Shown piece by piece: positions 14,982 to 54,224 of a stretch of 63,673 nucleotides of DNA (within the stretch, counting starts at the first letter, position 1; the number at the start of each line of letters is the position of its first letter). Source of the DNA: Halanaerobium saccharolyticum (lineage in GTDB: Bacteria; Bacillota; Halanaerobiia; Halanaerobiales; Halanaerobiaceae); NCBI RefSeq assembly GCF_003259895.1, contig NZ_QLME01000018.1, positions 1 to 63,673 on the forward strand. The letters are read 5' to 3'. The notes below the pieces were generated by a model, which was given only the letters and a program-made list of their open reading frames with translations, searched no databases and was not told where the DNA came from. The position numbers were made by a program, and so were the translations under genes.

Positions 14982-15632
14982 ATGAGTAAAGTTGAAGATT
15001 TAAAAAGAGTTGAGGAAACTGGGATTGTTGCTGTTGTTAGAGCAGAGAATGCAGAAAAAGCATTAAAAATTACTGAAGCTGTAAAAAAAGGTGGAATTGA
15101 AGCCATTGAGATTACAATGACTGTTCCTGGAGCTGTTGATGTAATTAAGCAGTTGACTGATGAGTACAGTAAAGATGAAATCTTAATTGGTGCAGGATCT
15201 GTTTTAGATGCAGAAACTGCTCGTGCCTGCATTCTAGCTGGAGCTGAGTATATTGTTTCTCCTTCTTTAGATGAAGAAACAATTGCTATGTGTAATCGCT
15301 ATCAGAAAGCTGTTATGCCTGGTGCAATGAGTGTAACTGAGGTTGTTAAAGCAATGAAATATGGTGCAGATATTGTTAAGATTTTCCCTGCGACCTTATT
15401 TGGCCCCAAGATTATTAAAGCTGTTAAAGGACCTTTACCACAGGCACCTCTAATGCCTACTGGTGGAGTTAGCCTTGATAATGTTAAAGATTGGATCAAA
15501 GCTGGAAGTTTAGCTGTTGGTGTTGGTAGTTCTTTAAGTAAGGGTGCCAAGACTGGTGACTATGAACAGGTAACAGAAACTGCTAAAGAATTTATTAGGT
15601 TGATTAAGGAAGCCAGAGCAGAAATGAATTAA
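14982..15632 (+). CDS. eda: 2-dehydro-3-deoxyphosphogluconate aldolase
   Basis: A 216-residue class I KDPG/KHG aldolase splitting 2-keto-3-deoxy-6-phosphogluconate into pyruvate and glyceraldehyde 3-phosphate. The Schiff-base lysine is Lys133 in YGADIVKIFPA; Glu43 in IEITMTVPG and the phosphate-binding end PTGGV are present. It forms a single (beta/alpha)8 barrel of normal length. Strong RBS AAAGGAGG. With the two downstream PfkB kinases it makes up the phosphorylated KDG branch that drains uronic and aldonic acids. Confidence 0.94.
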   Translation: MSKVEDLKRVEETGIVAVVRAENAEKALKITEAVKKGGIEAIEITMTVPGAVDVIKQLTDEYSKDEILIGAGSVLDAETARACILAGAEYIVSPSLDEETIAMCNRYQKAVMPGAMSVTEVVKAMKYGADIVKIFPATLFGPKIIKAVKGPLPQAPLMPTGGVSLDNVKDWIKAGSLAVGVGSSLSKGAKTGDYEQVTETAKEFIRLIKEARAEMN

Positions 15633-16105: not shown

Positions 16106-17128
16106 ATGTCTAAGAAAGTTGTTACATTTGGAGAGATTATGTTGCGTTTGACTCCACCGGATCATGAACGTTTTGTTCAGGCTGACACATTTAATGTTAT
16201 TTATGGTGGTGGGGAAGCAAATACTGCAGTATCTCTAGCCAATTATGGCCTGGATGCTCGTTTTGTAACTAAGTTACCTGATAATCCACTGGGACAGGCT
16301 GCTTTAAATGAAGTTCGTCGTTTTGGAGTTGATACTGATTATATTGCCCGTGGTGGAGACCGTTTAGGAATTTATTACTGTGAGAATGGTGCAAGTCAGA
16401 GACCATCTAATGTAGTTTACGATAGAGCTCATTCTGCAATTGCTGAAGCTGAAAGTGCAGATTTTGACTGGGAAGAAATTTTTGCTGATGTAGACTGGTT
16501 CCACTATACTGGAATTACTCCAGCTTTAAGTGAGAAGATGTCAGATGTTACTTTAGAAGCTGTTAAAGCTGCTAAAAAGCATGGTGTAAAAGTAAGCTGT
16601 GACTTAAACTACCGCGCTAAGCTCTGGAGCAAGGAAAGAGCTGGTCAGGTAATGGAAGGTTTAATGGAATATACTGATGTTGTAATTGCTAATGAAGAAG
16701 ATGCCGAAATGGTATTTGATATTAAGAGTGGTTCTGATATTACCAGTGGTGACTTAAATGTTGAAGGTTACAAAGATGTTGCAAAGCAGTTAATTGACCG
16801 CTTTGACTTAGAATTAGTAGGAAGTCACTTAAGAATCAGCCACAGTGCTTCTCGTAATGGCTGGTTAGTTATTCTCTTTGATGGAGAAAATTTTGTTCAG
16901 TCAACTAAATATGATATCACAATTATTGACCGGGTTGGTGGAGGAGACTCCTTTGCTGGTGGCTTAATTTATTCTCTGGTAACCGGTAAAGAGCTTCAGG
17001 AAGCTGCTGAGTTTGGTGCTGCTGCTTCTGCTCTAAAGCAGTCAATACCTGGTGACTTTAACCATGTAAGTGTTAAAGAAGTAGAAACTCTAGCTGGAGG
17101 AAATGCTTCCGGAAGAGTTAAGAGATAA
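16106..17128 (+). CDS. kdgK: 2-keto-3-deoxygluconate kinase (PfkB family)
   Basis: A 340-residue ribokinase-family kinase, likely phosphorylating 2-keto-3-deoxygluconate to KDPG, the substrate of the aldolase encoded upstream. It opens with FGEIMLRLTPPDHERFVQ and the substrate loop YGGGEANTA. The catalytic loop reads VGGGDSFAGG, a known variant of the PfkB GAGD motif with Asp as base. The sequence style GIYYCENGASQRPSNVVYDR is that of KDG kinases. RBS AGGAGG precedes the ATG, after a long, possibly structured leader. Confidence 0.88.
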   Translation: MSKKVVTFGEIMLRLTPPDHERFVQADTFNVIYGGGEANTAVSLANYGLDARFVTKLPDNPLGQAALNEVRRFGVDTDYIARGGDRLGIYYCENGASQRPSNVVYDRAHSAIAEAESADFDWEEIFADVDWFHYTGITPALSEKMSDVTLEAVKAAKKHGVKVSCDLNYRAKLWSKERAGQVMEGLMEYTDVVIANEEDAEMVFDIKSGSDITSGDLNVEGYKDVAKQLIDRFDLELVGSHLRISHSASRNGWLVILFDGENFVQSTKYDITIIDRVGGGDSFAGGLIYSLVTGKELQEAAEFGAAASALKQSIPGDFNHVSVKEVETLAGGNASGRVKR

Positions 17129-17234: not shown

Positions 17235-18194
17235 ATGATTGATCTTGTTACTATTGGAGAGACAATGGCGGCAATGGCACCAAATGAGGTAGGTTCCTTA
17301 AAGTATTTGAATAATTTTTCTAAGTATATAGCAGGAGCAGAATCTAATGTTGCAATTGGGGTTAAGCGGCTCGGTTTTAATTCAGGTTGGATCAGTAAAC
17401 TGGGGAAGGATCCGCTTGGTGATTATGTAGAGTTTTTTGTCCGCGGTGAAGGAGTAGATGTCTCTCAGGTAAGAAGAGATGAAGAACATAGAACTGGATT
17501 GTTGATTAAAGAAATGCATACAACCAAAGAACCGAAAGTTTTTTATTATCGTGATAATTCTGCTGCCAGTCATCTGGCTCAGGAGGATATAAATGAAGAA
17601 TATATTAAAAATGCTAAACATCTGCATTTAACAGGTATTACACCTGCTTTAAGTCAGAGTGCTCAGGGAGCATTTTTTGAAGCTTTAAGGGTGGCTCGAG
17701 AAAATGATCTGAAAATTTCTTTTGATCCTAACTTAAGATTAAAATTATGGGATTCTATAGAGGAAATGAGAGAGGTAATGTTAAAAATTATTCCTCAGGT
17801 TAATGTTCTGCTGCCAGGAGTTGAAGAAGGAAAAATTCTACTTGGCCTTTCTGAACCGGAAGCAATTATCAAGGGGTTTTATGAGATGATGGAGCCGGGA
17901 TCTTTAATTGTCTTAAAAATTGGTGCCAGAGGTGCTTTATATTATCAGGGAGACCAGATTGAACAGGTTGAGCCTTACTGTGTGGATAATATTGTGGATT
18001 TGATTGGAGCCGGAGATGCTTTTGCAGCGGGATTAATTACCGGTCTTTTAAGGGAACTGCCAATTAGAGAAGCAGTTGAGCTTGCTAATTTAGTGGGTGC
18101 CCTGTGTATTACTGTTAAAGGTGATATAGAAGGACTTCCCACCTGGGAACAGGTTGAGGTTTATCAGGGGAAAAAGGAAGAAATTCATCGATAG
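17235..18194 (+). CDS. PfkB-family sugar kinase, second KDG kinase-like gene
   Basis: A 319-residue ribokinase-family kinase with the substrate loop IAGAESNVAIG and the catalytic signature LIGAGDAFAAG. Its start VTIGETMAAMAPNEVG and the middle segment EPKVFYYRDNSAASHL resemble Bacillus KdgK. It is clearly a different protein from the preceding kinase, not a tandem copy. Possible substrates are 2-keto-3-deoxygluconate or a related keto-deoxy or keto sugar. RBS AGGAGG is present. The two kinases may serve different entry routes (uronates versus aldonates). Confidence 0.85.
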   Translation: MIDLVTIGETMAAMAPNEVGSLKYLNNFSKYIAGAESNVAIGVKRLGFNSGWISKLGKDPLGDYVEFFVRGEGVDVSQVRRDEEHRTGLLIKEMHTTKEPKVFYYRDNSAASHLAQEDINEEYIKNAKHLHLTGITPALSQSAQGAFFEALRVARENDLKISFDPNLRLKLWDSIEEMREVMLKIIPQVNVLLPGVEEGKILLGLSEPEAIIKGFYEMMEPGSLIVLKIGARGALYYQGDQIEQVEPYCVDNIVDLIGAGDAFAAGLITGLLRELPIREAVELANLVGALCITVKGDIEGLPTWEQVEVYQGKKEEIHR

Positions 18195-40873: not shown

Positions 40874-41746
40874 TTATTCATTAAAAACTTGGTATCTTTC
40901 AATAGAAGAACGTTTTTCTTGATAATCTTTAGGAGAAATACCAACTTCTTTTTTAAACGATCTAAAAAAAGTAGAATAGTCTCCAAAATTCAACTTGGCG
41001 CAAACCTCACTACAGCTGTTATTATCTAGTAAAAGTCTTTTAGCTGACATAATTTTTTTATATCTGATATAACGTATAATTGAAACTCCAGCATGTTTTT
41101 TGAATATATGAGACAAATAAGACTTATTTAAATGAAAGTTATTAGCAAGTGAATCTAGAGAAATAGACTCATTGATGTGTTGATTAATATATTTAATAAT
41201 ATCTAACATACGTTCATTATATTTAATAGTTTCACTTTCTATTTTCTCTTTTCTGGTAAATAATTCATTAATTAGAATTAATAGTTGAACAAAAAGAGTT
41301 TCAATCATAAGTTCCGAGGTGTCATCTTTTTGATGAGCATATTCAATTATTTTTTTAAAGTAAGAGTATATTTTTTTATTTTTATCATATATTTTATTAT
41401 GGTTAGCTTCTTTTCTATTTTCAAAGCATTCTAATAAATTAAAATTATAAGAATCATATTTTGATAAAACCCAGGGGAAGAAGTGAATTATAATTCTTTC
41501 ATAGGGTTCATTTTTATTGAAAATTGGTTTGTGTAATTCTCGATTATTCATTATCAACAGAGTATTTTCTTTCAACTCATAAGCATGACCCTCAATGTAA
41601 TAGGTAACATCTCCTTTTAAAAAATAGAACAGCTCATAAAAATCATGAAGATGCATATTAAATTTGTCATAATCGGTTATTTTTTTTGATTGCTTATAAT
41701 CTACTTCCAAAAAATTATTATTTAAGTAGTAGTCATTTTTTCTCAT
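40874..41746 (-). CDS. AraC-family transcriptional regulator
   Basis: A 290-residue regulator. A cupin-like N-terminal domain (FNMHLHDFYELFYFLKGD, about 22-60) probably binds a sugar or sugar acid. The C-terminal double helix-turn-helix (about 180-280) has the AraC pattern LANNFHLNKSYLSHIFKKHAG and FGDYSTFFRSFKKEVGISPKDY. It is divergent from the TRAP-GH31-UxaC operon and 300 bases from it, so it is a likely activator of uronide uptake. AGGTG precedes the ATG on the reverse strand. Confidence 0.9.
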   Translation of the reverse strand: MRKNDYYLNNNFLEVDYKQSKKITDYDKFNMHLHDFYELFYFLKGDVTYYIEGHAYELKENTLLIMNNRELHKPIFNKNEPYERIIIHFFPWVLSKYDSYNFNLLECFENRKEANHNKIYDKNKKIYSYFKKIIEYAHQKDDTSELMIETLFVQLLILINELFTRKEKIESETIKYNERMLDIIKYINQHINESISLDSLANNFHLNKSYLSHIFKKHAGVSIIRYIRYKKIMSAKRLLLDNNSCSEVCAKLNFGDYSTFFRSFKKEVGISPKDYQEKRSSIERYQVFNE

Positions 41747-42045: not shown

Positions 42046-43047
42046 ATGAAAAAAGTTGCTTTATTTTTAATTCTATTTGTTTTATCAGTTGTTTTAGTAG
42101 GTTGCAGTTCTACAGATGAAAGTGTAGGTGATTCAACTCAAAAATTGAAATTAGCCCATAATCTAAATGAGAGACACCCAGTTCATCTTGCCTTAGAAAG
42201 ATTTAAAGAAACAGTAGAAGAAAAATCAGAGGGAAATATTGAAATAACAATTCATCCTAATGGACAGTTAGGATCAGAGTCACAGGTGTTAGAACAGCTT
42301 CAAGCTGGTGCTTTAGCGATGACAAAAGTTTCAGCAGCTGCTTTAACTTCTTATTCTGAAGGTTATAATGCCTTTACTTTACCATATGTTTTTGCAGATG
42401 AAGATCACTTTTTTAAGTCAATGGAGTCAGATGCAGTTCAGAAATTATATAATTCAACAGAAGAAAATGGTTTTATTGGTTTAACTTTTTATGATTCTGG
42501 CGCGCGTTCATTCTATCATGTTGATAAAGCAATTCTAACTCCAGAAGATTTAGACGGAGAGAAGATTAGAGTAATGGGTTTCCAATCTCAGATTGATATG
42601 ATGAAAGCTCTGGGTGGAACTCCAGTAACAATGCCTTATGGTGATGTATATACTTCTATTCAGTCAGGAGTAATTGATGGAGCTGAAAGTAACCCGACTG
42701 CACTGACAAATGGTAATCATGGTGAGGTTGCAAAACATTTCTCTTTTGATGAGCATACAAGGATACCGGATATTGTGGTTATAAGTGCACAGATTTGGAA
42801 TTCACTAACTGAAGAGCAGCAGGCTATAATTAAAGAGGCAGCTGTTGAGTCAACAGAATACCAAAAAGGTGTCTGGGATGAAGCTATATCTGAGGCTAGA
42901 AGTCAGGCAGAAGATGAGATGGATGTAACATTCCATGAAGTAGATAAAGAACCATTTAGAGAAGCCGTTCAGCCAATGCTGCAGAATTATAAAGATGAAT
43001 ATCCTGAAGTTAGAGAATTATTAAATGTATTTAAAGAACTTGAATAG
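42046..43047 (+). CDS. dctP: TRAP transporter substrate-binding lipoprotein (DctP)
   Basis: A 333-residue extracytoplasmic binding protein of the DctP family. The signal peptide ends in VLVGCSS, a lipobox. The conserved carboxylate-binding Arg lies in LDGEKIRVMGFQ, followed by the family stretch MPYGDVYTSIQSGVIDGAESNP. TRAP systems carry organic acids with Na+ or H+. With GH31 and uronate isomerase genes in the operon, the ligand is likely a uronic acid or uronide. RBS AGGAGG. A terminator after this gene probably raises its level relative to the membrane parts. Confidence 0.93.
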   Translation: MKKVALFLILFVLSVVLVGCSSTDESVGDSTQKLKLAHNLNERHPVHLALERFKETVEEKSEGNIEITIHPNGQLGSESQVLEQLQAGALAMTKVSAAALTSYSEGYNAFTLPYVFADEDHFFKSMESDAVQKLYNSTEENGFIGLTFYDSGARSFYHVDKAILTPEDLDGEKIRVMGFQSQIDMMKALGGTPVTMPYGDVYTSIQSGVIDGAESNPTALTNGNHGEVAKHFSFDEHTRIPDIVVISAQIWNSLTEEQQAIIKEAAVESTEYQKGVWDEAISEARSQAEDEMDVTFHEVDKEPFREAVQPMLQNYKDEYPEVRELLNVFKELE

Positions 43048-43057
43048 TTTTTTTAGT

Positions 43058-43085
43058 AAAAAGGTCTGTAAAAAGACCTTTTTAT
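43058..43085 (+). terminator. Intra-operon terminator after dctP
   Basis: AAAAAGGTCT pairs with AGACCTTTTT around a short loop and leads into TTTTTATT. It lies between dctP and dctQ and should reduce read-through so that the binding protein is made in excess. Confidence 0.8.
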
Positions 43086-43127
43086 TACTTTGTTTAAATT
43101 TCAAGAATATTTAAAGAGGTGAATTAA

Positions 43128-43598
43128 ATGTTAAAAATAAAAAAGGGAATGAATAAGGTATTATCTTATCTGACAGCTTTTTTATTGATTTCAATGACTG
43201 CTTTAGTTATCTGGCAGGTTTTTACTAGATATATATTAAGAAACCCGAGTACTTTTACAGAAGAATTAGTAAGGTTCATGTTAATCTGGACCTCATTTTT
43301 AGGTGCTGCCTATACTTTTGGAATCCGGGGACATATGGCATTAATATTTTTGAGAAATAAATTGGTAGGTAAAAAGAAAAGAGCTCTTTATCTTTTTATT
43401 GATTTAATTATTTTAATTTTTGCTCTGATATTAATCAAAGGCGGAATAAACTTATCTTCTAATTTAATTCAGATTAATACTCCTATTCTGGGGGTTTCAA
43501 AAGGTCTTGTTTATTCTATAGTGCCAATTTCGGGATTTTTAATTACAATTTATCAGATTTTTAATATACGCGAAGATTTAGAGATGGAGATTAATTAA
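43128..43598 (+). CDS. dctQ: TRAP transporter small permease (DctQ)
   Basis: A 156-residue membrane protein with four helices. It has the DctQ features TRYILRNPSTFTEELVRFMLIW and GAAYTFGIRGHMAL. It pairs with the DctM protein to form the transporter. RBS GAGGTG. It is encoded 21 bases before dctM. Confidence 0.92.
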   Translation: MLKIKKGMNKVLSYLTAFLLISMTALVIWQVFTRYILRNPSTFTEELVRFMLIWTSFLGAAYTFGIRGHMALIFLRNKLVGKKKRALYLFIDLIILIFALILIKGGINLSSNLIQINTPILGVSKGLVYSIVPISGFLITIYQIFNIREDLEMEIN

Positions 43599-43619
43599 TA
43601 TAATTTTAGGAGGTTAAAA

Positions 43620-44915
43620 ATGGGAAGTGCTGCAATAATATTATTATTTTCTTTTTTAATACAGCTTGGAATTGGAATTCCAATATCTATTAGTATCGGG
43701 ATGTCAACTTTAATTACGGCATTAACTACTCTGCCTGTTGATATTGTGTTTTTTTCAATTGCGCAAAAAATGATTGGTGGTATTGACAGTTTTTCGTTAC
43801 TGGCTGTTCCTTTATTTGTCTTTGCTGGTAATGTAATGAATAATGGTGGTATTGCAAAAAAATTGATAGATTTTGCTAAAGTTATTGGAGGAAGACTGCC
43901 TGGCGCTCTGGCCCACGCCAATGTGCTCGGAAACATGTTGTTTGGTTCTTTATCAGGTTCTGCTGTAGCTGCTGCGGCAGCGATTGGAGGAACCATGGGT
44001 CCAATTCAGGAAGAAGAGGGCTATGATCCTTCCTATGCTGCTGCAGTTAATATTGCCTCATCACCAACCGGAATGTTAATTCCACCAAGTGGGGTCTTAA
44101 TTCTTTATTCACTTGTGGCAGGAGGAGTATCTATTTCTGCTCTTTTTGTAGCAGGTTATATTCCGGGGATTTTAATGGGATTATCCTGTATGCTGGTTGC
44201 TTATGTTTATGCCAAGAAAAATAATTACCCAGTAGCAGAAAAAGTTACTTTTAGAGAAGGTTTTAAAGTATTTCTGAAGGCGATTCCAAGTCTGTTATTA
44301 ATAATTATAGTTATTGGAGGTATAGTAGCCGGTATTTTTACTGCAACTGAAGGTGCTGCTATGGCAGTTGTTTATACGATATTTTTATCTTATGTTTATG
44401 GAACTTTATCAATTAAATCTTTTAAGGATATAGTTCTTAAAACTGCTGTGACTACAGGAGTAATAATGTTTTTAGTTGCTTCATCTTCGGCTATGTCCTG
44501 GATTATGGCTTATACAGGTATTCCGCAGGCAATTAGTAATGCAATTCTTTCTGTTTCGGATAACCAAATAATTATATTATTAATTATGAATATTACTTTA
44601 TTAATAGTTGGAACTTTTATGGATTTAACTCCAGCAGTACTAATATTTACGCCAATATTTTTGCCGATAGCCAAACAATTGGGGCTGCACCCGGTTCATT
44701 TTGGAATTCTTCTGGTTTTCAATCTTTGTATTGGAATAACAACTCCACCAGTAGGAAGTGTTTTATTTGTAGGCTGTAGTGTAGCTGGAATATCTATCGA
44801 AAAAGTTATAAAACCAATGATTCCATTTTTTGCAGTGCTTATTATCGCCTTACTTATTGTAACATTCATTCCAGAAATCAGCTTATTTTTACCAAGGTTA
44901 TTTGGTTTATTATAA
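43620..44915 (+). CDS. dctM: TRAP transporter large permease (DctM)
   Basis: A 431-residue membrane protein with about twelve helices, the ion-coupled permease of the TRAP system. Family motifs include LLAVPLFVFAGNVMN near the N-terminus, SGSAVAAAAAIGG, and the C-terminal GITTPPVGSVLFVG. It takes its ligand from DctP and works with DctQ. RBS AGGAGG. It is followed 19 bases later by the glycosidase gene, so transport and hydrolysis are linked. Confidence 0.94.
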   Translation: MGSAAIILLFSFLIQLGIGIPISISIGMSTLITALTTLPVDIVFFSIAQKMIGGIDSFSLLAVPLFVFAGNVMNNGGIAKKLIDFAKVIGGRLPGALAHANVLGNMLFGSLSGSAVAAAAAIGGTMGPIQEEEGYDPSYAAAVNIASSPTGMLIPPSGVLILYSLVAGGVSISALFVAGYIPGILMGLSCMLVAYVYAKKNNYPVAEKVTFREGFKVFLKAIPSLLLIIIVIGGIVAGIFTATEGAAMAVVYTIFLSYVYGTLSIKSFKDIVLKTAVTTGVIMFLVASSSAMSWIMAYTGIPQAISNAILSVSDNQIIILLIMNITLLIVGTFMDLTPAVLIFTPIFLPIAKQLGLHPVHFGILLVFNLCIGITTPPVGSVLFVGCSVAGISIEKVIKPMIPFFAVLIIALLIVTFIPEISLFLPRLFGLL

Positions 44916-44934
44916 TTACAGGGAGTGCTAGAAA

Positions 44935-47340
44935 ATGATCTATAATAATTATTTGTTTAAATTTATTAAAATAGAAGATAATATATTATCATTTGAAGAT
45001 GATTTTAATTCAGCTGAATCTAAAATCAAGGTGAAGCTATTTATACTAGAAGAAGATATTATCCGTGTTCTTTTTATAGAAGAAGAACTAGAATTAGATA
45101 GAACCTGGCAGGTGGCTCCAGGGATGGGGGATATACCATATGAAGGTAGAGATAAAATGGATACAGCTGTATTTTCACTGCCAGATTTTGAATGGAGTCA
45201 GGAAAATAATGATTTTAAAATTGAAACCAAAAAGTTAAAAGCAAAAATAGATCTAAATGGATTTAAAATAGACTGGTTTGCAAAGACTAATTCTGGCTGG
45301 ATAAAGATTGCAGGTGATAGAAAAACCCAGAGTTATAATTTTAATAACAGTCTGGGAGATGGTATTTATCACTATCTGGAAAGAGATACTAAAGATCAGT
45401 ACTTTGGCTTAGGAGAAAAAGCAGGAGAAACCGATCGATATGGTAATCGTTATCGGATGTTTAATGTTGATCCGATGGGTTACGATGCTGAGCAAACAGA
45501 TCCGCTTTATAAACATGTTCCATTTTATATTACCAGAAATAAAGAAAACAAAATCTCCTATGGTTTATTTTACGATAACCTGTCAACTTCAGTCTTTGAA
45601 ATGGGATCAGAGTTAGATAATTATCACGGTTATTATAGATACTATCACGGTAGACATGGGGATTTAGATTATTATATGATACTTGGCCCAGAAATAAGTG
45701 GGGTAACTGAAAAGTTTTCCTGGCTGACCGGAAAAACAATATTTGAACCAAAATGGAGTATAGGTTATTCAGGTTCTACTATGACTTATACTGATTCAGC
45801 TAATGCTCAGGAGAAACTGCTAACTTTTATTGAAGATTGTCAGGAACATGATATACCCTGTGATTCTTTTCAGCTCTCATCAGGTTATACATCAATTGAT
45901 GATAAAAGATATGTCTTTAATTGGAATAAATCCAAAATACCTACTCCAAACAAAATGACTCAGGATTTTCATGATAATGGACTAAAACTCTGTGCTAACA
46001 TAAAACCCTGTTTATTACAGGATCATCCAAAATTTGAACAGCTTAAATCTGAGGATATGTTCATAATGAATGAAGATCAGAGCAGTGCTGAAATAGCTCA
46101 GTTCTGGGATGATTTAGGAGCCTATCTTGATTTTACCAATTATAAAACAATTAACTGGTGGAAGGAAAATGTAAAAGATAAGCTCCTGGAATATGGTATT
46201 GATTCTACCTGGAATGATAACAATGAATATGAAATCTGGTCAGAAGAGGCAAAGGCAAATGGATTTGGAAAAGCATTAGATATTGAATTGATCCGGCCAG
46301 TACAGACCTTACTGATGATGAAAGCTTCTTATGAAGCTCAAAAAGAATATGCACCTGATAAAAGGCCATATTTAATTTCTCGCTCAGGCTGTCCCGGGAT
46401 GCAGCGTTATGTGCAGACCTGGTCTGGAGATAACAGAACCAACTGGAAAACCTTAAAATATAACATAAAAATGGGAATAGGTTTAAGTTTATCAGGAATT
46501 TATAATTTTGGTCATGATGTCGGAGGTTTTTCAGGCTCAGCTCCTGAACCAGAATTATTTTTAAGATGGGTACAGAACGGTATTTTCCACCCCAGATTTA
46601 CAATTCATTCCTGGAATGACGATAAAACAGTTAATGTTCCCTGGATGTACAGTGATGTATTACCTGGGATTAGAGAAGCAATTAAATTTAGATCAAAAAT
46701 AACCCCATATCTCTATAATTTGCTTTATCAGTCATCTCAATTTTATTCTCCAATGGTTAAACCGACTTTTTATGACTTTGAAGAAGATGAAAACACTTTT
46801 AAAGAAAATGACGAATTTATGCTGGGTGATTATCTTTTAGTTGCTTCTGTTGTTGAAAAAGGGAAAAGAAAAAGAGATGTCTACCTGCCAGATGGTGCTT
46901 ACTGGTATGATTATCATTCTGATAATTTTTATGAAGGTGGAGATGAAGTTATTCTGGAATCCCCCTTAGAACAATTCCCTTTACTGGTTAAAGAAGGGGC
47001 CATTCTACCTGTTAATGAAGCTGAAATAACATTTGAGAATAAGGATGAAGATAAAAGAGCTTTTGAGATTTTCCCATTTATTAACAAGGGAAAAGAAAGT
47101 TATACTTTATTTGAAGATGATGGCTGCAGCTATGAATATCTAGAAGGTAATTATGCTGAGATTACAGTAGATATGAGCTGCGATCAGGAAAATATTAAAA
47201 TAAACATTGAAAAAACTGGAGCTTATAATCTTTCCTATGATGATATAAAACTTTATTTTCCAGAAGCAGAGAAAAGAGAAATTATTGTAAATGGAGAAAA
47301 ATTAAAAAGCGGTAAAAATACTTATACTTATCTAATTTAA
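44935..47340 (+). CDS. Glycoside hydrolase family 31 alpha-glycosidase
   Basis: An 801-residue GH31 enzyme without a signal peptide, so cytoplasmic. A beta-sandwich N-terminal domain (1-240) precedes the (beta/alpha)8 barrel. The catalytic nucleophile is Asp428 in TWNDNNEYE and the acid/base is Asp499 in WSGDNRTNW; family signatures GHDVGGF and FHPRFTIHSW follow. GH31 includes alpha-glucosidases, alpha-xylosidases and sulfoquinovosidases. Because it lies between the TRAP transporter and uronate isomerase, the substrate may be an alpha-linked uronide or a related short oligosaccharide, which would be uncommon for the family. Specificity cannot be read from sequence alone. Confidence 0.9.
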   Translation: MIYNNYLFKFIKIEDNILSFEDDFNSAESKIKVKLFILEEDIIRVLFIEEELELDRTWQVAPGMGDIPYEGRDKMDTAVFSLPDFEWSQENNDFKIETKKLKAKIDLNGFKIDWFAKTNSGWIKIAGDRKTQSYNFNNSLGDGIYHYLERDTKDQYFGLGEKAGETDRYGNRYRMFNVDPMGYDAEQTDPLYKHVPFYITRNKENKISYGLFYDNLSTSVFEMGSELDNYHGYYRYYHGRHGDLDYYMILGPEISGVTEKFSWLTGKTIFEPKWSIGYSGSTMTYTDSANAQEKLLTFIEDCQEHDIPCDSFQLSSGYTSIDDKRYVFNWNKSKIPTPNKMTQDFHDNGLKLCANIKPCLLQDHPKFEQLKSEDMFIMNEDQSSAEIAQFWDDLGAYLDFTNYKTINWWKENVKDKLLEYGIDSTWNDNNEYEIWSEEAKANGFGKALDIELIRPVQTLLMMKASYEAQKEYAPDKRPYLISRSGCPGMQRYVQTWSGDNRTNWKTLKYNIKMGIGLSLSGIYNFGHDVGGFSGSAPEPELFLRWVQNGIFHPRFTIHSWNDDKTVNVPWMYSDVLPGIREAIKFRSKITPYLYNLLYQSSQFYSPMVKPTFYDFEEDENTFKENDEFMLGDYLLVASVVEKGKRKRDVYLPDGAYWYDYHSDNFYEGGDEVILESPLEQFPLLVKEGAILPVNEAEITFENKDEDKRAFEIFPFINKGKESYTLFEDDGCSYEYLEGNYAEITVDMSCDQENIKINIEKTGAYNLSYDDIKLYFPEAEKREIIVNGEKLKSGKNTYTYLI

Positions 47341-47356
47341 TTGGAGGTGAAAATTA

Positions 47357-48772
47357 TTGAAAGAATTTATGAATGAAAATTTTCTTTTAGAATCTGAAAT
47401 AGCTGAGTCTTTATTTCATAATTATGCAAAAGATATGCCAATCTTTGATTACCACTGTCATTTAAGTCCTCAAGAAATTGCTGAGGATAAAAAATATGAA
47501 AATATTACAGAAGTATGGTTAGCAGGAGATCACTATAAATGGCGAGCAATGCGCAGTAATGGGATAGAAGAAAAATATATAACTGGTGAGGGAAGTGATT
47601 ATCAAAAGTTCTTAGCCTGGGCTAAAACTGTGGAGAACTGTATAGGAAATCCTTTATATCACTGGACACATTTAGAATTGCAGAGATTTTTTGATATCCA
47701 TCAAACTCTGAATGAAGAAACAGCCAGTAGAATCTGGAATAAGGCTAATAAATTACTGGCAGAAGATGAATTTTCTGCCCGCAATTTAATGAAAAAAATG
47801 AATGTTAAAGGGGTTTGTACTACTGATGACCCGATAGATAGTCTAGAATATCACAGGACAATTGCTAAAGATGATGATTTTGATATTAAGGTATTACCTA
47901 CTTTTAGACCTGACAAAGGAACTAAAATTGCTGAGCCCGGATTTTCTGACTGGTTAACTGAACTTGAAAAATTAGTTGCAAAGAAAATAGAAAGTTATGA
48001 TGATTTTCTTGCTGCCTTGAAAAGTAGAGTAGAATTTTTCCACAGATGTGGTTGTAGATTAGCTGATAATGATCTGCCTTATGTTATGTATCAGAGAGTT
48101 AAAATTGAAGATCTGAGAAATATTTTTAAGAAAGCAGTTAAACAAAAAGAGCTGACAAAATTAGAAAAAGACCAGTTCAGAACAGAAGTGCTGCTGTACT
48201 TAGCTGAACTTTATTCAGAATTAGGATGGGTAATGCAGCTGCATATTGGAACACTCAGGAATAATAACAGTCGAATGTTTAACAAAGTAGGTGCTGATAG
48301 TGGTTTTGATTCAATTTCAGACTGTCAAATAGCCAGACCATTATCTGATTTTTTGGATGCACTAGATTTGAATGATAATTTGCCTAAAACAATTTTATAT
48401 ACTAATAATCCTAATCATAATGAAGTTATTGGTACAATGATCGGCAATTTTCAGGGGGATGGAATTCCAGGTAAGCTGCAATTTGGTACTGCCTGGTGGT
48501 TTAATGATCATATTGATGGAATGCTTAATCAATTAAAAACTTTAGCAAATCTGGGAGTATTGAGTACCTTTGTGGGAATGTTAACTGATTCCAGAAGTTT
48601 CTTGTCTTACCCGCGCCATGAATATTTTAGAAGAATACTATCTAATTTATTAGGGGAATGGATCAATAAGGGCTATTATCCAGATGATGATAAGAAAATA
48701 AAAAAAATTATTCAGGATATTTCGTTTTATAATGCAGAAAAATATTTTGACATACATCTATCAAATTATTAA
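47357..48772 (+). CDS. uxaC: Glucuronate/galacturonate isomerase
   Basis: A 471-residue uronate isomerase (amidohydrolase-like barrel) turning D-glucuronate into D-fructuronate and D-galacturonate into D-tagaturonate. Hallmarks are IFDYHCHLSPQEIAEDKKYENITEVW at the N-terminus, KGVCTTDDPIDSLEYH and the C-terminal SRSFLSYPRHEYFRR-like region. TTG start, with GGAGGTG upstream, 16 bases after the GH31 gene. It is the first intracellular step of uronate breakdown, which leads by reductase and dehydratase (not seen here) to KDG, handled by the KDG kinases encoded near 16-18 kb. Confidence 0.94.
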   Translation: MKEFMNENFLLESEIAESLFHNYAKDMPIFDYHCHLSPQEIAEDKKYENITEVWLAGDHYKWRAMRSNGIEEKYITGEGSDYQKFLAWAKTVENCIGNPLYHWTHLELQRFFDIHQTLNEETASRIWNKANKLLAEDEFSARNLMKKMNVKGVCTTDDPIDSLEYHRTIAKDDDFDIKVLPTFRPDKGTKIAEPGFSDWLTELEKLVAKKIESYDDFLAALKSRVEFFHRCGCRLADNDLPYVMYQRVKIEDLRNIFKKAVKQKELTKLEKDQFRTEVLLYLAELYSELGWVMQLHIGTLRNNNSRMFNKVGADSGFDSISDCQIARPLSDFLDALDLNDNLPKTILYTNNPNHNEVIGTMIGNFQGDGIPGKLQFGTAWWFNDHIDGMLNQLKTLANLGVLSTFVGMLTDSRSFLSYPRHEYFRRILSNLLGEWINKGYYPDDDKKIKKIIQDISFYNAEKYFDIHLSNY

Positions 48773-49112: not shown

Positions 49113-49141
49113 TTGAATATTAAGGGCTGATGCCCATTTAG

Positions 49142-49172
49142 AGACCTGCCGAGAGGCGGGTCTTTGTGTTTT
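49142..49172 (+). terminator. Terminator after tRNA-Ser
   Basis: AGACCTGCC pairs with GGCGGGTCT around GAGA, followed by TTGTGTTTT. It is a good terminator. Confidence 0.85.
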
Positions 49173-49338: not shown

Positions 49339-50094
49339 ATGGTACATAATCCAACATATAGAGTTATTTCTATATTACAAGCTGTTTCTAATCATCAAGA
49401 TGGATTTACACTTAGTGAGCTAACTAAAGAAACCGATATTCCATTAGGAACAATTTCACCAATATTGAAAACACTATTGGACTATAGATTTTTAGAATTA
49501 GATAGTTCTACAAATAAATATACAATAGGGATTCAATCATATTATATTGGTTCTTCCTTTGTTAGTAAAAATTCTACTCTTGATTTAATACGTCAGGAGA
49601 TGAATTCACTCTCAAATGATTGTAATGAGACTTGTCAGCTAGGTATCTTAAAAAAAGGGCAGGTCTTTTATTTAATCAAGGTAGAAGGTCAAGAGCCAAT
49701 TCGAATTGTTTCAGAAGTAGGGAAAAGTCTTCCTGCCTATACTACAGCACTTGGAAAGGCGATTTTATCTCGTTATACAGAAACAGAGCTTGAAGAGCTT
49801 TATCCAGATGGTTTAAAAGCATTAACTTCTAATACAATTACAGATATGGGTATTTTAAAAGATCAATTAAAGGATGTTAAAGCTACTGGTTTTGCAATAG
49901 AAAATGGAGAAAGTGGAGAACACACAAGCTGCATAGCTGTCCCAATTCATCAAAATCATGAGATAGTTGCTGGTTTAAGTGTTGTTTATCCCAGTTTTAG
50001 AGAAACAAAAGAAAAACGAGATTTTATCAAAGCAGCTTTATTAAAATATAAAAATAATATTGAGAAGATTTTAGTGGAGCATAATTTAATATAA
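49339..50094 (+). CDS. IclR-family transcriptional regulator
   Basis: A 251-residue IclR regulator. Residues 1-65 form the winged helix-turn-helix (TLSELTKETDIPLGTISPILKTLL). The remainder is the IclR effector domain with LPAYTTALGKAILSRYTETELEELYP and the C-terminal SGEHTSCIAVPI. IclR proteins often sense 2-keto-3-deoxy sugar acids (as KdgR does) or related acids. It lies just upstream of the dehydratase-permease-aldolase operon whose promoter carries an inverted repeat, so it is a likely repressor or activator of that operon. RBS AAGGAG. Confidence 0.9.
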   Translation: MVHNPTYRVISILQAVSNHQDGFTLSELTKETDIPLGTISPILKTLLDYRFLELDSSTNKYTIGIQSYYIGSSFVSKNSTLDLIRQEMNSLSNDCNETCQLGILKKGQVFYLIKVEGQEPIRIVSEVGKSLPAYTTALGKAILSRYTETELEELYPDGLKALTSNTITDMGILKDQLKDVKATGFAIENGESGEHTSCIAVPIHQNHEIVAGLSVVYPSFRETKEKRDFIKAALLKYKNNIEKILVEHNLI

Positions 50095-50108
50095 AAATCT
50101 AGAAATAG

Positions 50109-50147
50109 CCCAGATCTATAATTATTATAGTTCTGGGTGTTTTTTTA
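50109..50147 (+). terminator. Terminator after the IclR gene
   Basis: CCCAGATCTATAA pairs with TTATAGTTCTGGG (one G-T and small mismatch), followed by TGTTTTTTT. Confidence 0.85.
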
Positions 50148-50275
50148 TGTCTAAAAGATTATGTTTAATGACATAGAAATAGTTTAGATAGGTCTTTTTA
50201 TTTTGCTTATTTTATAGAATAGGACCGGACATTTGTCCTAAATGTAAATAAATTAAAAAAATTCTAAAACAAAAC

Positions 50276-50304
50276 TTGATTTTCGTATATAAATAAGATA
50301 TCAT
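50276..50304 (+). promoter_or_regulatory. Promoter of the dehydratase operon
   Basis: TTGATT (50276-50281), a 17-base spacer and TATCAT (50299-50304) lie 43 bases before the dehydratase ATG. Confidence 0.65.
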
Positions 50305-50314
50305 ATATACGAAA
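50281..50314. promoter_or_regulatory. Inverted repeat operator at the dehydratase promoter
   Basis: TTTCGTATAT (50281-50290) and ATATACGAAA (50305-50314) are perfect reverse complements separated by 14 bases. They bracket the spacer and -10 of the promoter. A site of this form would suit the IclR regulator encoded next to it. Confidence 0.65.
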
Positions 50315-50346
50315 GAGAATACAATACAAAAAAAGGGTGATGTCAG

Positions 50347-52032
50347 ATGAAGTACAGAAGTGAAAAAACTTTACGAGGAACTGAAAATCAATATTATCGA
50401 GCAACTTATAAGTCGATGGGATATTCAACTGATGATTTAAAGCGTCCGATTATTGGTATTGCTAACTCATGGACTGAAGGTGTACCAGGACATTTTAATT
50501 TGCGTCAGGTAGCACAAAGAGTAAGAGATGGTATTTATCGTGCTGGAGGAACACCTGTTGAATTTGGAACTATTGCTTGTTGTGATGGGATGGCCCAGGG
50601 ACACGATGGTATGCATTATATTCTACCTTCTAGGCAAATTATTTGCGATAGTGTAGAAACTTTTGCTCAAACACAATTAGTAGATGCTCTGGTATTATTA
50701 GGATCTTGTGATAAGATTGTGCCAGGTATGTTGATGGCAGCAGCCAGACTGGATATTCCATGTATACTTCTTCCTGGTGGACCAATGGAAGGTGGTATTG
50801 TATTTGATGGAAGAGAGTCTGACCAGACATCAAGTATAGAAGCACTGGGGATGTTGAGTGCTGGTAAAATTACTGAAGATGAATACACTGTTTTAGAAAA
50901 TTTAAGCTGTCCCAGTTGTGGTTCCTGCTCTTATCTTGGAACAGCAAATACTATGTGCTGTTTATCAGAAGCTTTAGGAATGACATTACCCGATGGTGCA
51001 ATGATTCCTGCTACTTCAGCAGATCGCCTGAGAATTGCTGAAAAAACTGGCATAAAAATTGTAGAATTAACTAAACAAGAAATTAGTGCACGTAAGATTA
51101 TTACAAAAGAAGCTATTCGCAATGCTATTAAAGTTTGTCTGGCTATTAGTGGAAGTACTAATGCTGTTATGCATTTAACAGCAATTGCACATGAAGCAGA
51201 GTTAGATATGGATGTATTAGCTGAATTTGATAAATTAAGCCGTAAGACTCCTCAAGTTGCTAAAATTAATCCAGCTAGCCAGTATAATTGTGTTGATTTT
51301 CATAAAGCTGGGGGAGTACCACGAGTTATGGAATCTTTAAAAACAAAATTAGATCTGGATGCTTTAACAGTTACTAATCAGACAGTTGAGAAAAATATTT
51401 CTGATCATGTTTATCAATATCCAGAAGATACAAGAGTAGTTCGTTCAGCAGAAGAACCTTTTGGATTTGAAGGTGGGGTAGCTGTATTAAGAGGTAATCT
51501 AGCCCCTGATACAGGTGTAACTAAACCAGGAGCCTTTGATAAGAGTCTATATCACTTCACTGGTGAAGCTATTTGCTTTGATAGTGAAGAAGAGGCGGAA
51601 GAAGCTATTTTGAATGGAAAAGTTAAAGCTGGTCATGTAGTAGTAATTCGCTACGAAGGACCAAAGGGTGGACCTGGAATGCGGGAAATGTTTAAGGCTA
51701 TGAAATATCTCTATGGACGTGGTTTAGGTAAAACAACAGCTCTTATAACAGATGGTAGATTTTCCGGCACAAATAATGGATGTTTTGTTGGCCATATTTC
51801 TCCAGAAGCAGCAGAAGGTGGACCAATTGCAATTGTAAATGATGGCGATAAAATTGAAATTGATGTAGATAATCGCAGTCTGAAATTGTTAGTAAGTGAT
51901 GAAGAAATTGCAGAGAGATTAAGATCCTGGCAGCGTCCTGAGCCAAAATTCAAGCGAGGATATTTAGGACTTTATGCTAAACTTGCAGCCTCAGGTTCTG
52001 AAGGCGGTATATTAAAGACTGAGCAATTATAA
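50347..52032 (+). CDS. IlvD/Edd-family sugar-acid dehydratase
   Basis: A 561-residue Fe-S dehydratase of the IlvD/Edd family. Cluster-binding cysteines lie in GTIACCDGMAQGHDGM (Cys78/79), LLGSCDKIVPGML (Cys121) and SCPSCGSCSYLGTANTM (about 188-195). Glycine-rich GPKGGPGMREMFK and DGRFSGTNNGCFVGHISPEA near the C-terminus match the family. The family includes dihydroxyacid dehydratase (IlvD) and aldonate dehydratases for xylonate, gluconate and arabinonate. Operon with a GntP permease and an aldolase, under an IclR regulator, favours an aldonate dehydratase producing a 2-keto-3-deoxy acid over branched-chain amino acid synthesis. Confidence 0.9.
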   Translation: MKYRSEKTLRGTENQYYRATYKSMGYSTDDLKRPIIGIANSWTEGVPGHFNLRQVAQRVRDGIYRAGGTPVEFGTIACCDGMAQGHDGMHYILPSRQIICDSVETFAQTQLVDALVLLGSCDKIVPGMLMAAARLDIPCILLPGGPMEGGIVFDGRESDQTSSIEALGMLSAGKITEDEYTVLENLSCPSCGSCSYLGTANTMCCLSEALGMTLPDGAMIPATSADRLRIAEKTGIKIVELTKQEISARKIITKEAIRNAIKVCLAISGSTNAVMHLTAIAHEAELDMDVLAEFDKLSRKTPQVAKINPASQYNCVDFHKAGGVPRVMESLKTKLDLDALTVTNQTVEKNISDHVYQYPEDTRVVRSAEEPFGFEGGVAVLRGNLAPDTGVTKPGAFDKSLYHFTGEAICFDSEEEAEEAILNGKVKAGHVVVIRYEGPKGGPGMREMFKAMKYLYGRGLGKTTALITDGRFSGTNNGCFVGHISPEAAEGGPIAIVNDGDKIEIDVDNRSLKLLVSDEEIAERLRSWQRPEPKFKRGYLGLYAKLAASGSEGGILKTEQL

Positions 52033-52061
52033 ATACTATAAATTGAAAAGAGGTGAACTAA

Positions 52062-53321
52062 ATGAGTGTATCAGCTATAGGCGCTATATTGGCATTAGTT
52101 ATTGCAATTATTCTAATCTTAAAGAAGGTTCCTCCAACCTATGCGATGATAATTGGAGCAATCATCGGAGGATTAGTTGGTGGAGTGGGTTTATTTAATA
52201 CTGTTACATATATGATAGATGGCACCAAAAATATTGTTTCTGCTGTAATAAGAATTGTAGTTGCTGGTGTTCTCGCAGGAACATTAATTGAATCAGGGGC
52301 AGCAGCACGAATTGCAGAGTCCATTGTGGAAAGACTTGGCAGTAAAAATGCAATACTGGCAATGATACTTGCTACTTGGGCTTTGACTGCTGTAGGCGTT
52401 TTTGGAGATGTAGCTATAATTACTGTCTCTCCCATCGCTATTCAGATTGCCCAAAAGGTAGGCTATAGAAAACTAGGTATCTTGATTGCTATGATCGGAG
52501 GAGTTAAAGCCGGGAATGTAATGAGTCCTAATCCTAATACTATTGCAGCCGCCGAAACTTTTAAAGTTCCACTTACTTCTATGATAGCAGCAGGTATTCC
52601 AGCTGCAGCTGCAGCAATTGTTATTACATTGATTATTGCAAAGCGTTTATCACATCATGGAACAGAAGTAGTTGCAGAACATATTGTAAGTAGAGATGAA
52701 GATCTTCCTGGTCTAGTAGCCTCACTTTCGGGACCTGCAGCTACTATTCTTCTTTTACTGGGGCGTCCACTTTTTAATGTAACTATTGATCCTTTAATTG
52801 CTCTACCAGTTGGAGGCTTGGTAGGAATGATTGTAATGGGAAAAGTAAAGCATATTATTCATTATTTAGAATTTGGTTTAGAAAAAATGAGTGGAGTTGC
52901 AATGCTGTTGATTGGAACAGGTACTTTAGCCGGAATTATTGCTAATTCAACTCTAAAAGTAGTAATAATAGATGGTTTGAATTCGGTTGGTTTACCAGCA
53001 TTTTTACTGGCCCCAATTTCTGGAATTTTAATGGGCGCAGCGTCAGCTTCTTCCACAGCTGGCACAACTCTGGCAAGTCAGGTGTTTGGGGGAACTATTT
53101 TATCATATGGAGTAGGCTCCCTGGCTGCAGGTGCAATGGTTCACTCGGGTAGTTTTGTATTTGATGGTCTTCCTCATGGATCATTTTTTCATGTTAGTGC
53201 GGGAACTGTTAATATGCAGATTAAAGAAAGACTAAAATTAATTCCTTACGAAGCATTTATAGGGTTTTGTATGGTAACTACTTCTACAATTTTATATGGA
53301 GTAATTAAAATATTAGGATAG
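52062..53321 (+). CDS. GntP-family aldonate permease
   Basis: A 419-residue membrane transporter of the GntP (gluconate permease) family with many hydrophobic helices. It shows ALVIAIILILKKVPPTYAMIIGA near the start and VGAGIxxA-like glycine-rich helices later. GntP proteins take up gluconate and related sugar acids with H+. RBS GAGGTG, 29 bases after the dehydratase gene. It should provide the dehydratase substrate. Confidence 0.88.
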   Translation: MSVSAIGAILALVIAIILILKKVPPTYAMIIGAIIGGLVGGVGLFNTVTYMIDGTKNIVSAVIRIVVAGVLAGTLIESGAAARIAESIVERLGSKNAILAMILATWALTAVGVFGDVAIITVSPIAIQIAQKVGYRKLGILIAMIGGVKAGNVMSPNPNTIAAAETFKVPLTSMIAAGIPAAAAAIVITLIIAKRLSHHGTEVVAEHIVSRDEDLPGLVASLSGPAATILLLLGRPLFNVTIDPLIALPVGGLVGMIVMGKVKHIIHYLEFGLEKMSGVAMLLIGTGTLAGIIANSTLKVVIIDGLNSVGLPAFLLAPISGILMGAASASSTAGTTLASQVFGGTILSYGVGSLAAGAMVHSGSFVFDGLPHGSFFHVSAGTVNMQIKERLKLIPYEAFIGFCMVTTSTILYGVIKILG

Positions 53322-53330
53322 GTGAGAAAT

Positions 53331-54224
53331 ATGAAAGCTGAAATTATAACACCATCATTAACAATATTTAATGATGACGGAAGTATTGATTATGGTGGGA
53401 ATCGCAAGTTAATAAGACATTTAATTGATAATAAAGTAGATGGAATCGTACCGCTGGGAAGTACAGGCGAATTCACTTCGCTTTCATTTAAACAGAAAAA
53501 AGATTTTATAGACTTTTATTTATCTGAAATTGATGGAAGTGTTAAAGTATTACCTGGAACAGGATGTATAAATTATCAGGAAACAATTGAACTCTCTAAT
53601 TTTGCTCTAGCTAAAGGTGCTGAAGGAGTACTTATTATCGGGCAGTATTATTATGCTATGACTCAAGCAGATATTTTTCATTACTATGATTATTTAGCTA
53701 AGCAGATTGAAGGGAATATATATTTATATAATTTTCCTGCCCGGACCGGTACTGACATTACTCCGGAAACAGTATTACGTCTACTGCAGAATAATAAAAA
53801 TATTATAGGAATGAAAGAATCAGTTTCAACATTTACCCATACAAAAGATATTATGCAGTTAATTAAAACTGAATTTCCTCAGTTTAAAATGTATTCAGGT
53901 TTTGATAATCAGTTTTTAGATAATATTGATTATGGAGGTCAAGGATCTATAGGTGGTTTATCCAATATTTTACCTGGTCTTTGGTCAAAATGGGCTAATG
54001 CTAAAGAAGATGATCTTTATAATGAAGTCATTAGTATTAAAGAAAAAATTCTTTCGCTTATGAAATTATACCAAATTGAGTATAATTGCTCAGGTCTTTT
54101 CAAAGAATTATTGAAAGCAAGAGGATTAGATATCAATACTACAACACTATTTCCTTTTGAGGATGTAAAAAAAGAATCAATAACAGAAGGTTTAGAACTT
54201 ATTTCGCAGGTAATGGATGAATAG
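53331..54224 (+). CDS. DHDPS/N-acetylneuraminate lyase family aldolase
   Basis: A 297-residue class I aldolase of the dihydrodipicolinate synthase superfamily. The Schiff-base lysine is Lys162 in IIGMKESVS, and a Tyr lies in YLYNFPARTG; LGSTGEFTSLS is the pyruvate-binding pattern GSTGE. ATG 53331 is chosen with AGGTGAG upstream; GTG 53322 lies in that site. In this operon it is best read as a 2-keto-3-deoxy-aldonate aldolase releasing pyruvate and a short aldehyde, as YagE and KdgA-type enzymes do. It gives a non-phosphorylated route distinct from the KDPG route at 15 kb. Confidence 0.88.
   Translation: MKAEIITPSLTIFNDDGSIDYGGNRKLIRHLIDNKVDGIVPLGSTGEFTSLSFKQKKDFIDFYLSEIDGSVKVLPGTGCINYQETIELSNFALAKGAEGVLIIGQYYYAMTQADIFHYYDYLAKQIEGNIYLYNFPARTGTDITPETVLRLLQNNKNIIGMKESVSTFTHTKDIMQLIKTEFPQFKMYSGFDNQFLDNIDYGGQGSIGGLSNILPGLWSKWANAKEDDLYNEVISIKEKILSLMKLYQIEYNCSGLFKELLKARGLDINTTTLFPFEDVKKESITEGLELISQVMDE

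Follow-up and report, generated by a model that had tools for sequence, protein, structure and literature searches.

What does a family 31 glycoside hydrolase (GH31) do when its gene lies between a tripartite ATP-independent periplasmic (TRAP) transporter and a uronate isomerase? This question is raised by a locus of Halanaerobium saccharolyticum that we analyzed in contig NZ_QLME01000018.1 of assembly GCF_003259895.1 (63,673 nucleotides, the whole of which is termed the window here). Positions 42046-48772 form a single compact operon of five plus-strand genes, dctP-dctQ-dctM-GH31-uxaC, with successive intergenic gaps of 80, 21, 19, and 16 bases and a GGAGGTG motif resembling a ribosome-binding site ahead of uxaC (Table 1). 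Open reading frame (ORF) calls, the tight gaps, and Pfam and NCBIfam matches, with the Pfam matches of all operon proteins exceeding curated cut-offs, confirmed the TRAP-GH31-UxaC operon that a preliminary description had read from the DNA. UxaC matched its NCBIfam equivalog with 659 bits (cut-off, 387) and was 53% identical to UxaC of Escherichia coli K-12. Because this gene order (TRAP, GH31, UxaC) reappears at locus L098 of a second genome in the phylum and, with one gene separating GH31 from UxaC, in three alphaproteobacteria, the arrangement is far beyond chance.

From its genomic context and its active-site pocket, we predict that the GH31 protein is a cytoplasmic α-D-glucuronidase within an operon for scavenging α-glucuronides, a reading to which we assign a probability of about 0.7. 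The TRAP transporter would import a small α-glucuronide, which GH31, with glucuronic acid in its -1 subsite, would cleave by the retaining two-Asp mechanism of its family, presumably as a hydrolase rather than a transglycosylase. UxaC would then convert the released D-glucuronate to D-fructuronate, and catabolism would be finished by a reductase, mannonate dehydratase, 2-keto-3-deoxygluconate (KDG) kinase, and 2-keto-3-deoxy-6-phosphogluconate (KDPG) aldolase whose genes lie at other sites in the genome.

The GH31 protein contains the N-terminal, barrel, and C-terminal GH31 domains and DUF5110 (PF13802, PF01055, PF21365, and PF17137), all over cut-off; Pfam showed only GH31 domains and none of the α-glucuronidase families GH67, GH115, and GH4. 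The nucleophile D428 (in WNDNNE) aligned to D416 of the α-xylosidase YicI and D405 of the sulfoquinovosidase YihQ, the acid/base D499 (in WSGDN) aligned to D482 and D472 of these proteins, and both residues were invariant across 20 rows of one alignment. The preliminary description, which had reported both catalytic Asp residues and a cytoplasmic enzyme, is borne out in both respects, as reading of the N terminus by eye revealed no evident signal peptide. An AlphaFold2 model from 20 sequences had a mean predicted local distance difference test score (pLDDT) of 88.1 and a predicted template modeling score (pTM) of 0.91. By profile and by fold, the nearest solved structure was the dextranase FjDex31A (6JR6; approximately 24% identity; Z score of 37.9 and root mean square deviation [rmsd] of 2.3 over 742 residues), and YicI (1xsi) matched with a Z score of 37.8 and an rmsd of 3.0 over 724 residues. 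None of the solved structures found by profile or fold search came from the GH31 clade of the window protein.

This clade was apparent in a tree of 72 GH31 rows, in which one branch with 100% support in the Shimodaira-Hasegawa-like approximate likelihood ratio test (SH-aLRT) had 42 members on one side and YicI, YihQ, and 28 other GH31s on the other. The tree was built rapidly, has long branches, and was rooted at the midpoint; its deep order is not relied on. L114, with a stop in its extracted reading, was kept out of the tree and retained among the 31 aligned control rows; L084 and L005 denote one location, entered a single time in the counts; and L099 and a five-row ATP-binding cassette (ABC) clade (L093 to L097) were held apart from the 36 core rows. 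Phylogenetic placement, proposed as a check in the preliminary description, thus gave a clade of its own rather than a position inside an α-glucosidase or α-xylosidase clade among the rows tested. The closest relatives of the window protein were those of genomes G009 and G004 (62-63% identical), and the nearest relative beyond the genus was that of L098 (genome G956; 59-60%).

Clade members occurred in 25 of 398 Pseudomonadota genomes (E ≤ 6.2e-168, the next GH31 in the same search being at 1.7e-73), in 3 of 398 genomes of the window's phylum below 1e-130, its own genome counted in, and in 5 of 249 for Pseudomonas. A plasmid collection held 84 matching records, of which the 25 listed shared 43.6-52.9% identity with the query across 93% or more of its length; 8 records were inspected in detail. 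Hosts include E. coli, Klebsiella, Pantoea, Pseudomonas, Caballeronia, and Ruegeria, and the proteins are currently labeled "glycoside hydrolase family 31" or YicI-like α-glucosidase. Of 5426 complete E. coli genomes, 335 matched a cassette of a LacI regulator, a major facilitator superfamily (MFS) carrier, and GH31 (the E. coli GH31 homologue being WP_001313395.1), and in 327 the match covered 80% or more of cassette length. In E. coli T7Express_LysY (L144 2569-11028), the cassette lies beside a tyrosine recombinase/integrase gene at tRNA-Sec and adjoins the α-xylosidase genes yicIJ. Due to the presence of the cassette in E. coli, including T7 Express, a widely used laboratory expression host, its function is directly testable there.

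We compared gene neighborhoods at the 36 core loci, at the six outliers of the clade, and at 29 control loci, which surround other GH31 genes in the same set of 398 genomes and were drawn from 44 lower-scoring GH31 places. Script-based scanning covered 35 of the core loci, G004 (a 6.5-kb contig) was read by eye, and L074 ends right after GH31. The transporter beside GH31 was of the TRAP type at 7 core loci and an ExuT-type MFS carrier at 27 (34 of 36 together), with ABC transporters at the remaining 2 (G009 and G004). The MFS carriers were 41-53% identical to K-12 ExuT, which is annotated as a hexuronate transporter, and the four compared with GarP reached only 25-29%. The E. coli ExuT system takes free uronates; its UxaC and UxuAB enzymes are the same as those of the GH31 loci, but K-12 has no glycosidase beside ExuT.

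D-glucuronate-branch genes, counted as UxaC, UxuA, fructuronate reductase or mannonate oxidoreductase, ManD, Udh-like, or GudD, were present at 13 of the 36 core loci (the window, L035, L036, L039, L040, L041, L079, L085, L086, L089, L091, L092, and L098) and at none of the 29 control loci (Fisher P = 2.6e-4, relatedness ignored). On the tree, this gene label requires a minimum of 5 changes and transporter type a minimum of 3. Individual control loci showed a distant GarD relative (31%; L116), a generic short-chain dehydrogenase/reductase (30%; L109), and an ABC binding protein (26%; L121). Exchange of the importer is visible even within the genus, as G009 encodes a 76% AraC orthologue (tblastn, L026) divergent to an operon with a 63%-identical GH31 and an ABC transporter replacing TRAP. 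The regulator and GH31 are kept together while the importer is swapped. The window DctM shares 59% identity with the DctM encoded at the GH31 locus of Ruegeria.

The catabolic genes also bear on which uronate is released. L098 has the order TRAP, GH31, UxaC, UxuA, and D-mannonate oxidoreductase, and in Nitratireductor, Paracoccus, and Ruegeria, genes for a GH2 enzyme and DctP are divergent to DctQM, GH31, a mannitol-dehydrogenase-family reductase, and UxaC, with UxuA at one end. In Pantoea soli, UxuR, UxaC, fructuronate reductase, and UxuA are divergent to MFS-GH31, and L091 combines ManD (above cut-off) and a fructuronate-reductase-like gene with a distant UxaC. The other route found at core loci involves GudD, which at L085 is 72% identical to K-12 GudD. 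At L086, glucarate dehydratase, by far the nearest family, scored 703 bits, below its cut-off of 829; the dehydrogenase beside it, whose best NCBIfam match is another sugar dehydrogenase, may be a uronate dehydrogenase. With K-12 proteins as a yardstick, best matches in the core loci scanned were to UxuA, UxuB, UxaC, and GudD and never to UxaA, UxaB, or GarD. Mannonate and glucarate mark the glucuronate branches of catabolism, and the occurrence of genes of these branches at the loci makes D-glucuronate a likelier product than D-galacturonate. The separate clade, the two kinds of uronate-type transporter, and the two catabolic routes (UxaC with UxuB/UxuA or ManD, and GudD) support the uronide specificity suggested in the preliminary description. 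GH2 genes share a cluster with GH31 in Nitratireductor, Paracoccus, Ruegeria, and G359, and since the best NCBIfam match of the Ruegeria and Paracoccus GH2 proteins was β-glucuronidase, below cut-off, a single locus may handle both anomers.

The preliminary description had also directed attention to the pocket that binds C6, which proved to be altered relative to controls at S315, N355, K357, and R325. In the YicI D306 column, Asp was found in 30 of 31 controls, the exception being Q288 of YihQ, and Ser (S315) in all 36 core rows. This Asp, the conserved -1 Asp on barrel strand 2 of GH31 α-glucosidases, holds the -1 sugar (O4/O6 of glucose), and the position expected for C6 of that sugar follows from the roles of the YicI residues. 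N355 in the YicI W345 column and K357 were likewise present in 36 of 36 core rows, with controls mainly having Asn or Glu at the latter position and Asp in 6JR6 and maltase-glucoamylase; R325 was invariant across core rows. A separate HMMER profile alignment placed Asp at both the S315 and K357 positions of FjDex31A and maltase-glucoamylase. In the AlphaFold2 model, S315 follows barrel strand 311-314, N355 ends strand 351-356 with K357 adjacent, and the nucleophile D428 follows strand 424-427, a placement like that of the pocket residues. Around the site that C6 of the -1 sugar should occupy, the pocket appears to have shed acidic residues and gained a base, a change that fits a C6 carboxylate.

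Comparison with characterized relatives sharpened this picture. The window protein shares with YicI the fold, the catalytic residues, and H540/H558, R466/R483, and W479/W496 (YicI/window); in addition to its separate clade, it differs by D306 to S315, W345 to N355, and K414 to W426. FjDex31A has the same fold and catalytic Asp pair, but at 24% identity its Asp residues at the S315 and K357 positions are lost in the window protein. YihQ, the only control without the -1 Asp, resembles the window protein in family, in the Asp pair, in its pairing with transporter and sugar catabolism genes, and in having a substrate sugar whose C6 carries an acid group, as we propose for the window enzyme. In contrast, YihQ Q262, Q288, R301, W304, and Y508, which we take to be the QQRWY sulfoquinovosidase motif, correspond to T286, S315, a gap, Y326, and F532, so that none of the five sulfonate-site residues is kept; YihQ also lies across the supported branch, and the context is one of glucuronate rather than sulfoquinovose. 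We dropped R325 as the exact equivalent of YihQ R301, which the alignment places in a gap; R325 lies near R301 in sequence and could act like it. In the deep sister clade L093 to L097, an ABC-type binding protein is near four of the five genes, and the equivalents of window H558 (YicI H540) and S315 are Asn and Gly, respectively; the substrate of this group may differ from that of the core clade.

Evidence from the importer centers on DctP, whose nearest solved structure by sequence was 4N91 (E = 7.7e-65; the second-best match scored 30 bits lower). 4N91 is Apre_1383, a binding protein reported to be specific for D-glucuronate (PMC7660916). Equivalents of the ligand Arg residues R150 and R170 of STM3169, matched by residue counting as was position 215 below, are R154 and R175, and both are kept in 6 of 6 GH31-linked DctP proteins. 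An AlphaFold2 model of DctP (4 sequences; pLDDT, 77.2) had a weak stretch at 201-214, near residue 215 of the ligand site. We rejected fold matches of DctP as evidence for glucuronate, since 4P47, 4N8Y, 4N91, and others (Z scores of 31.6-30.5) and IseP (30.4) did not discriminate ligands.

Several observations weigh against an α-glucuronidase. UxaC serves galacturonate too, as in the K-12 annotation. Within the 8.5-10 kb considered per core locus, 23 of 36 loci had no uronate catabolic gene, 21 of these keeping an ExuT-type transporter, and the closest relatives, in G009 and G004, use an ABC transporter in a cluster where no uronate gene was found. The position of STM3169 N210, an Asn that contacts the ligand in known uronate binders, appears to be S215 (42688-42690) in the window DctP, whereas the five remaining GH31-linked DctP proteins have Asn; this change might make room for a glycoside or simply alter the ligand. 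Finally, an acidic aglycone would produce an identical gene context. On this last point, GH31 might instead be an α-glucosidase or similar enzyme that frees a neutral sugar from a disaccharide with D-glucuronic acid as the aglycone, which would then be used via UxaC. Such an enzyme would account for the transporters and uronate genes equally well, and the solved structures closest in sequence and in fold are those of glucan-active enzymes, but Ser for the -1 Asp in every core row, together with Lys for Asp, Asn, or Glu, suits an acid in the -1 subsite better than glucose, and we regard this explanation as unlikely.

An α-glucuronidase of a different kind, a stand-in for GH67 acting on xylan-derived aldouronic acids (4-O-methylglucuronosyl-xylose), would be in keeping with the parallel between the TRAP-glycosidase-UxaC layout and the GH67 locus of the same genome. 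We consider this very unlikely, because contig C16 of this genome already supplies a GH67 gene, accompanied by a GH3-like gene and by a dedicated TRAP transporter, UxaC, and two UxuA genes, and because 27 loci have ExuT-type carriers, which import monosaccharide acids and are not known to import aldouronates. That the substrate is an α-galacturonide or a sulfoquinovoside seems highly improbable: UxaC does accept galacturonate and sulfoquinovosidases do belong to GH31, but the core loci scanned have mannonate- and glucarate-branch genes instead of best matches to UxaA, UxaB, or GarD, and the YihQ positions are lost. An enzyme for small α-glucuronides remains our preferred reading, and such substrates would fit a carrier of monosaccharide acids.

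Among small α-glucuronides, one attractive, though hypothetical, candidate is α-glucuronosyl-glycerol derived from phosphorus-free lipids. Bacteria produce the anionic lipid glucuronic acid (GlcA)-diacylglycerol when short of phosphorus, and in a phosphorus-starved marine mesocosm it was the most abundant nonphosphorus lipid (PMC4796936), a SAR11 enzyme makes monoglucuronosyl diacylglycerol (MGlcA-DAG) and retains the α configuration in its glucosyl product (PMC8231724), and plants produce glucuronosyldiacylglycerol (GlcADG) too (PMC8124801). Deacylation of GlcA-diacylglycerol would leave glucuronosyl-glycerol, by analogy with sulfoquinovosyl-glycerol, which feeds sulfoquinovosidase pathways (PMC10755693). 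The sole genomic hint is a glycerol kinase gene, which with GlpD adjoins the Caballeronia locus and is near L085, also with GlpD; a GlpD-like gene (33%) is near L090. The remaining core loci scanned had no close glycerol kinase or GlpD match, and this link is too weak to support the glycerol-glycoside idea. It is possible, if doubtful, that this widespread and so far undescribed lineage is to glucuronate what the sulfoquinovosidases are to sulfoquinovose, recycling α-glucuronosyl-glycerol from GlcA-diacylglycerol, and that a cassette of regulator, ExuT-like or TRAP importer, and GH31 is passed among distantly related bacteria, E. coli and Klebsiella included.

The suggestion in the preliminary description that uronide specificity may be new in GH31 stands as a possibility, to which we add that our literature search found no report of a GH31 α-glucuronidase or α-uronidase; subscription papers and preprints were mostly outside its coverage, so that a report elsewhere is possible. 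In the available portions of three articles that mention GH31 with α-glucuronidase or glucuronate (PMC11036162, PMC8790579, and PMC10664415), this activity is not attributed to GH31. If correct, our prediction would give a function to proteins of a large, old family that are labeled only GH31 or YicI-like α-glucosidase across many bacteria and would supply a missing step in α-glucuronide reuse, perhaps of GlcA lipids abundant under phosphorus scarcity.

Elsewhere, the genome encodes four UxaC and three full-length UxuA proteins, with a split match to a fourth UxuA. A cluster on contig C16 (L146 472-13917) contains a reductase, UxuA, UxaC, TRAP, GntR, GH3-like, GH67, and UxuA genes, GH3 and GntR being identified by eye. 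GH67 loci with TRAP, UxaC, and UxuA share the operon logic of the window locus, but the glycosidase family is unrelated to GH31 and is inverting (PMC11036162). The window operon looks like the GH67-locus design with GH31 replacing GH67, beside a separate GH67 route for xylan.

Table 1. Genes of the GH31 operon, its divergent regulator, and sugar acid catabolism genes elsewhere in the window
Feature	Coordinates	Strand	Evidence and remarks
KDPG/KHG aldolase	14982..15632	+	NCBIfam TIGR01182, 194 bits (cut-off, 156); last step of glucuronate catabolism; separate cluster
PfkB-type sugar kinase, KDG kinase-like	16106..17128	+	Best NCBIfam matches below cut-off
PfkB-type sugar kinase, KDG kinase-like	17235..18194	+	NCBIfam NF040938, 233 bits, below cut-off (400)
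AraC-family regulator	40874..41746	-	Divergent, upstream of operon; Pfam HTH_18 and AraC_binding
DctP, TRAP substrate-binding lipoprotein	42046..43047	+	Pfam DctP, E = 1.6e-82
DctQ, TRAP small permease	43128..43598	+	Pfam DctQ, 5e-30
DctM, TRAP large permease	43620..44915	+	Pfam DctM, 1.7e-119
GH31 glycosidase, 801 aa, proposed α-D-glucuronidase	44935..47340	+	Pfam GH31 barrel, 2.5e-85
UxaC, glucuronate/galacturonate isomerase	47357..48772	+	TTG start; Pfam, 6.5e-219

Terminator-like stems at 43054-43087 (after DctP) and 49139-49166 (after UxaC) may be real. A promoter scan gave 46 promoter-like sites versus 37.4 expected and was not used as evidence. A 133-amino-acid antisense ORF within dctM (43595-43996, minus strand) is most likely a mechanical ORF without meaning. 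The G009 cluster (L026 5477-14001 and L027 1-9226) contains genes for a PA14-domain protein, an old yellow enzyme (OYE)-type flavoenzyme, and a xylose-isomerase-like barrel beside GH31 and the ABC importer, as well as a Gfo/Idh/MocA oxidoreductase, an MGH1-like hydrolase, GH130, and DUF2264, which suggests a different, oxidative glycoside route. Downstream of the window operon and on the same strand, 49339-54224 encodes an IclR-type regulator, an IlvD/Edd-family dehydratase that exceeds the dihydroxy-acid dehydratase cut-off, a GntP-family permease, and a DapA-family aldolase, perhaps forming a sugar-acid pathway. At 55605-57377, we found a flavocytochrome c/fumarate-reductase-like flavoprotein with a probable signal peptide as judged by eye.

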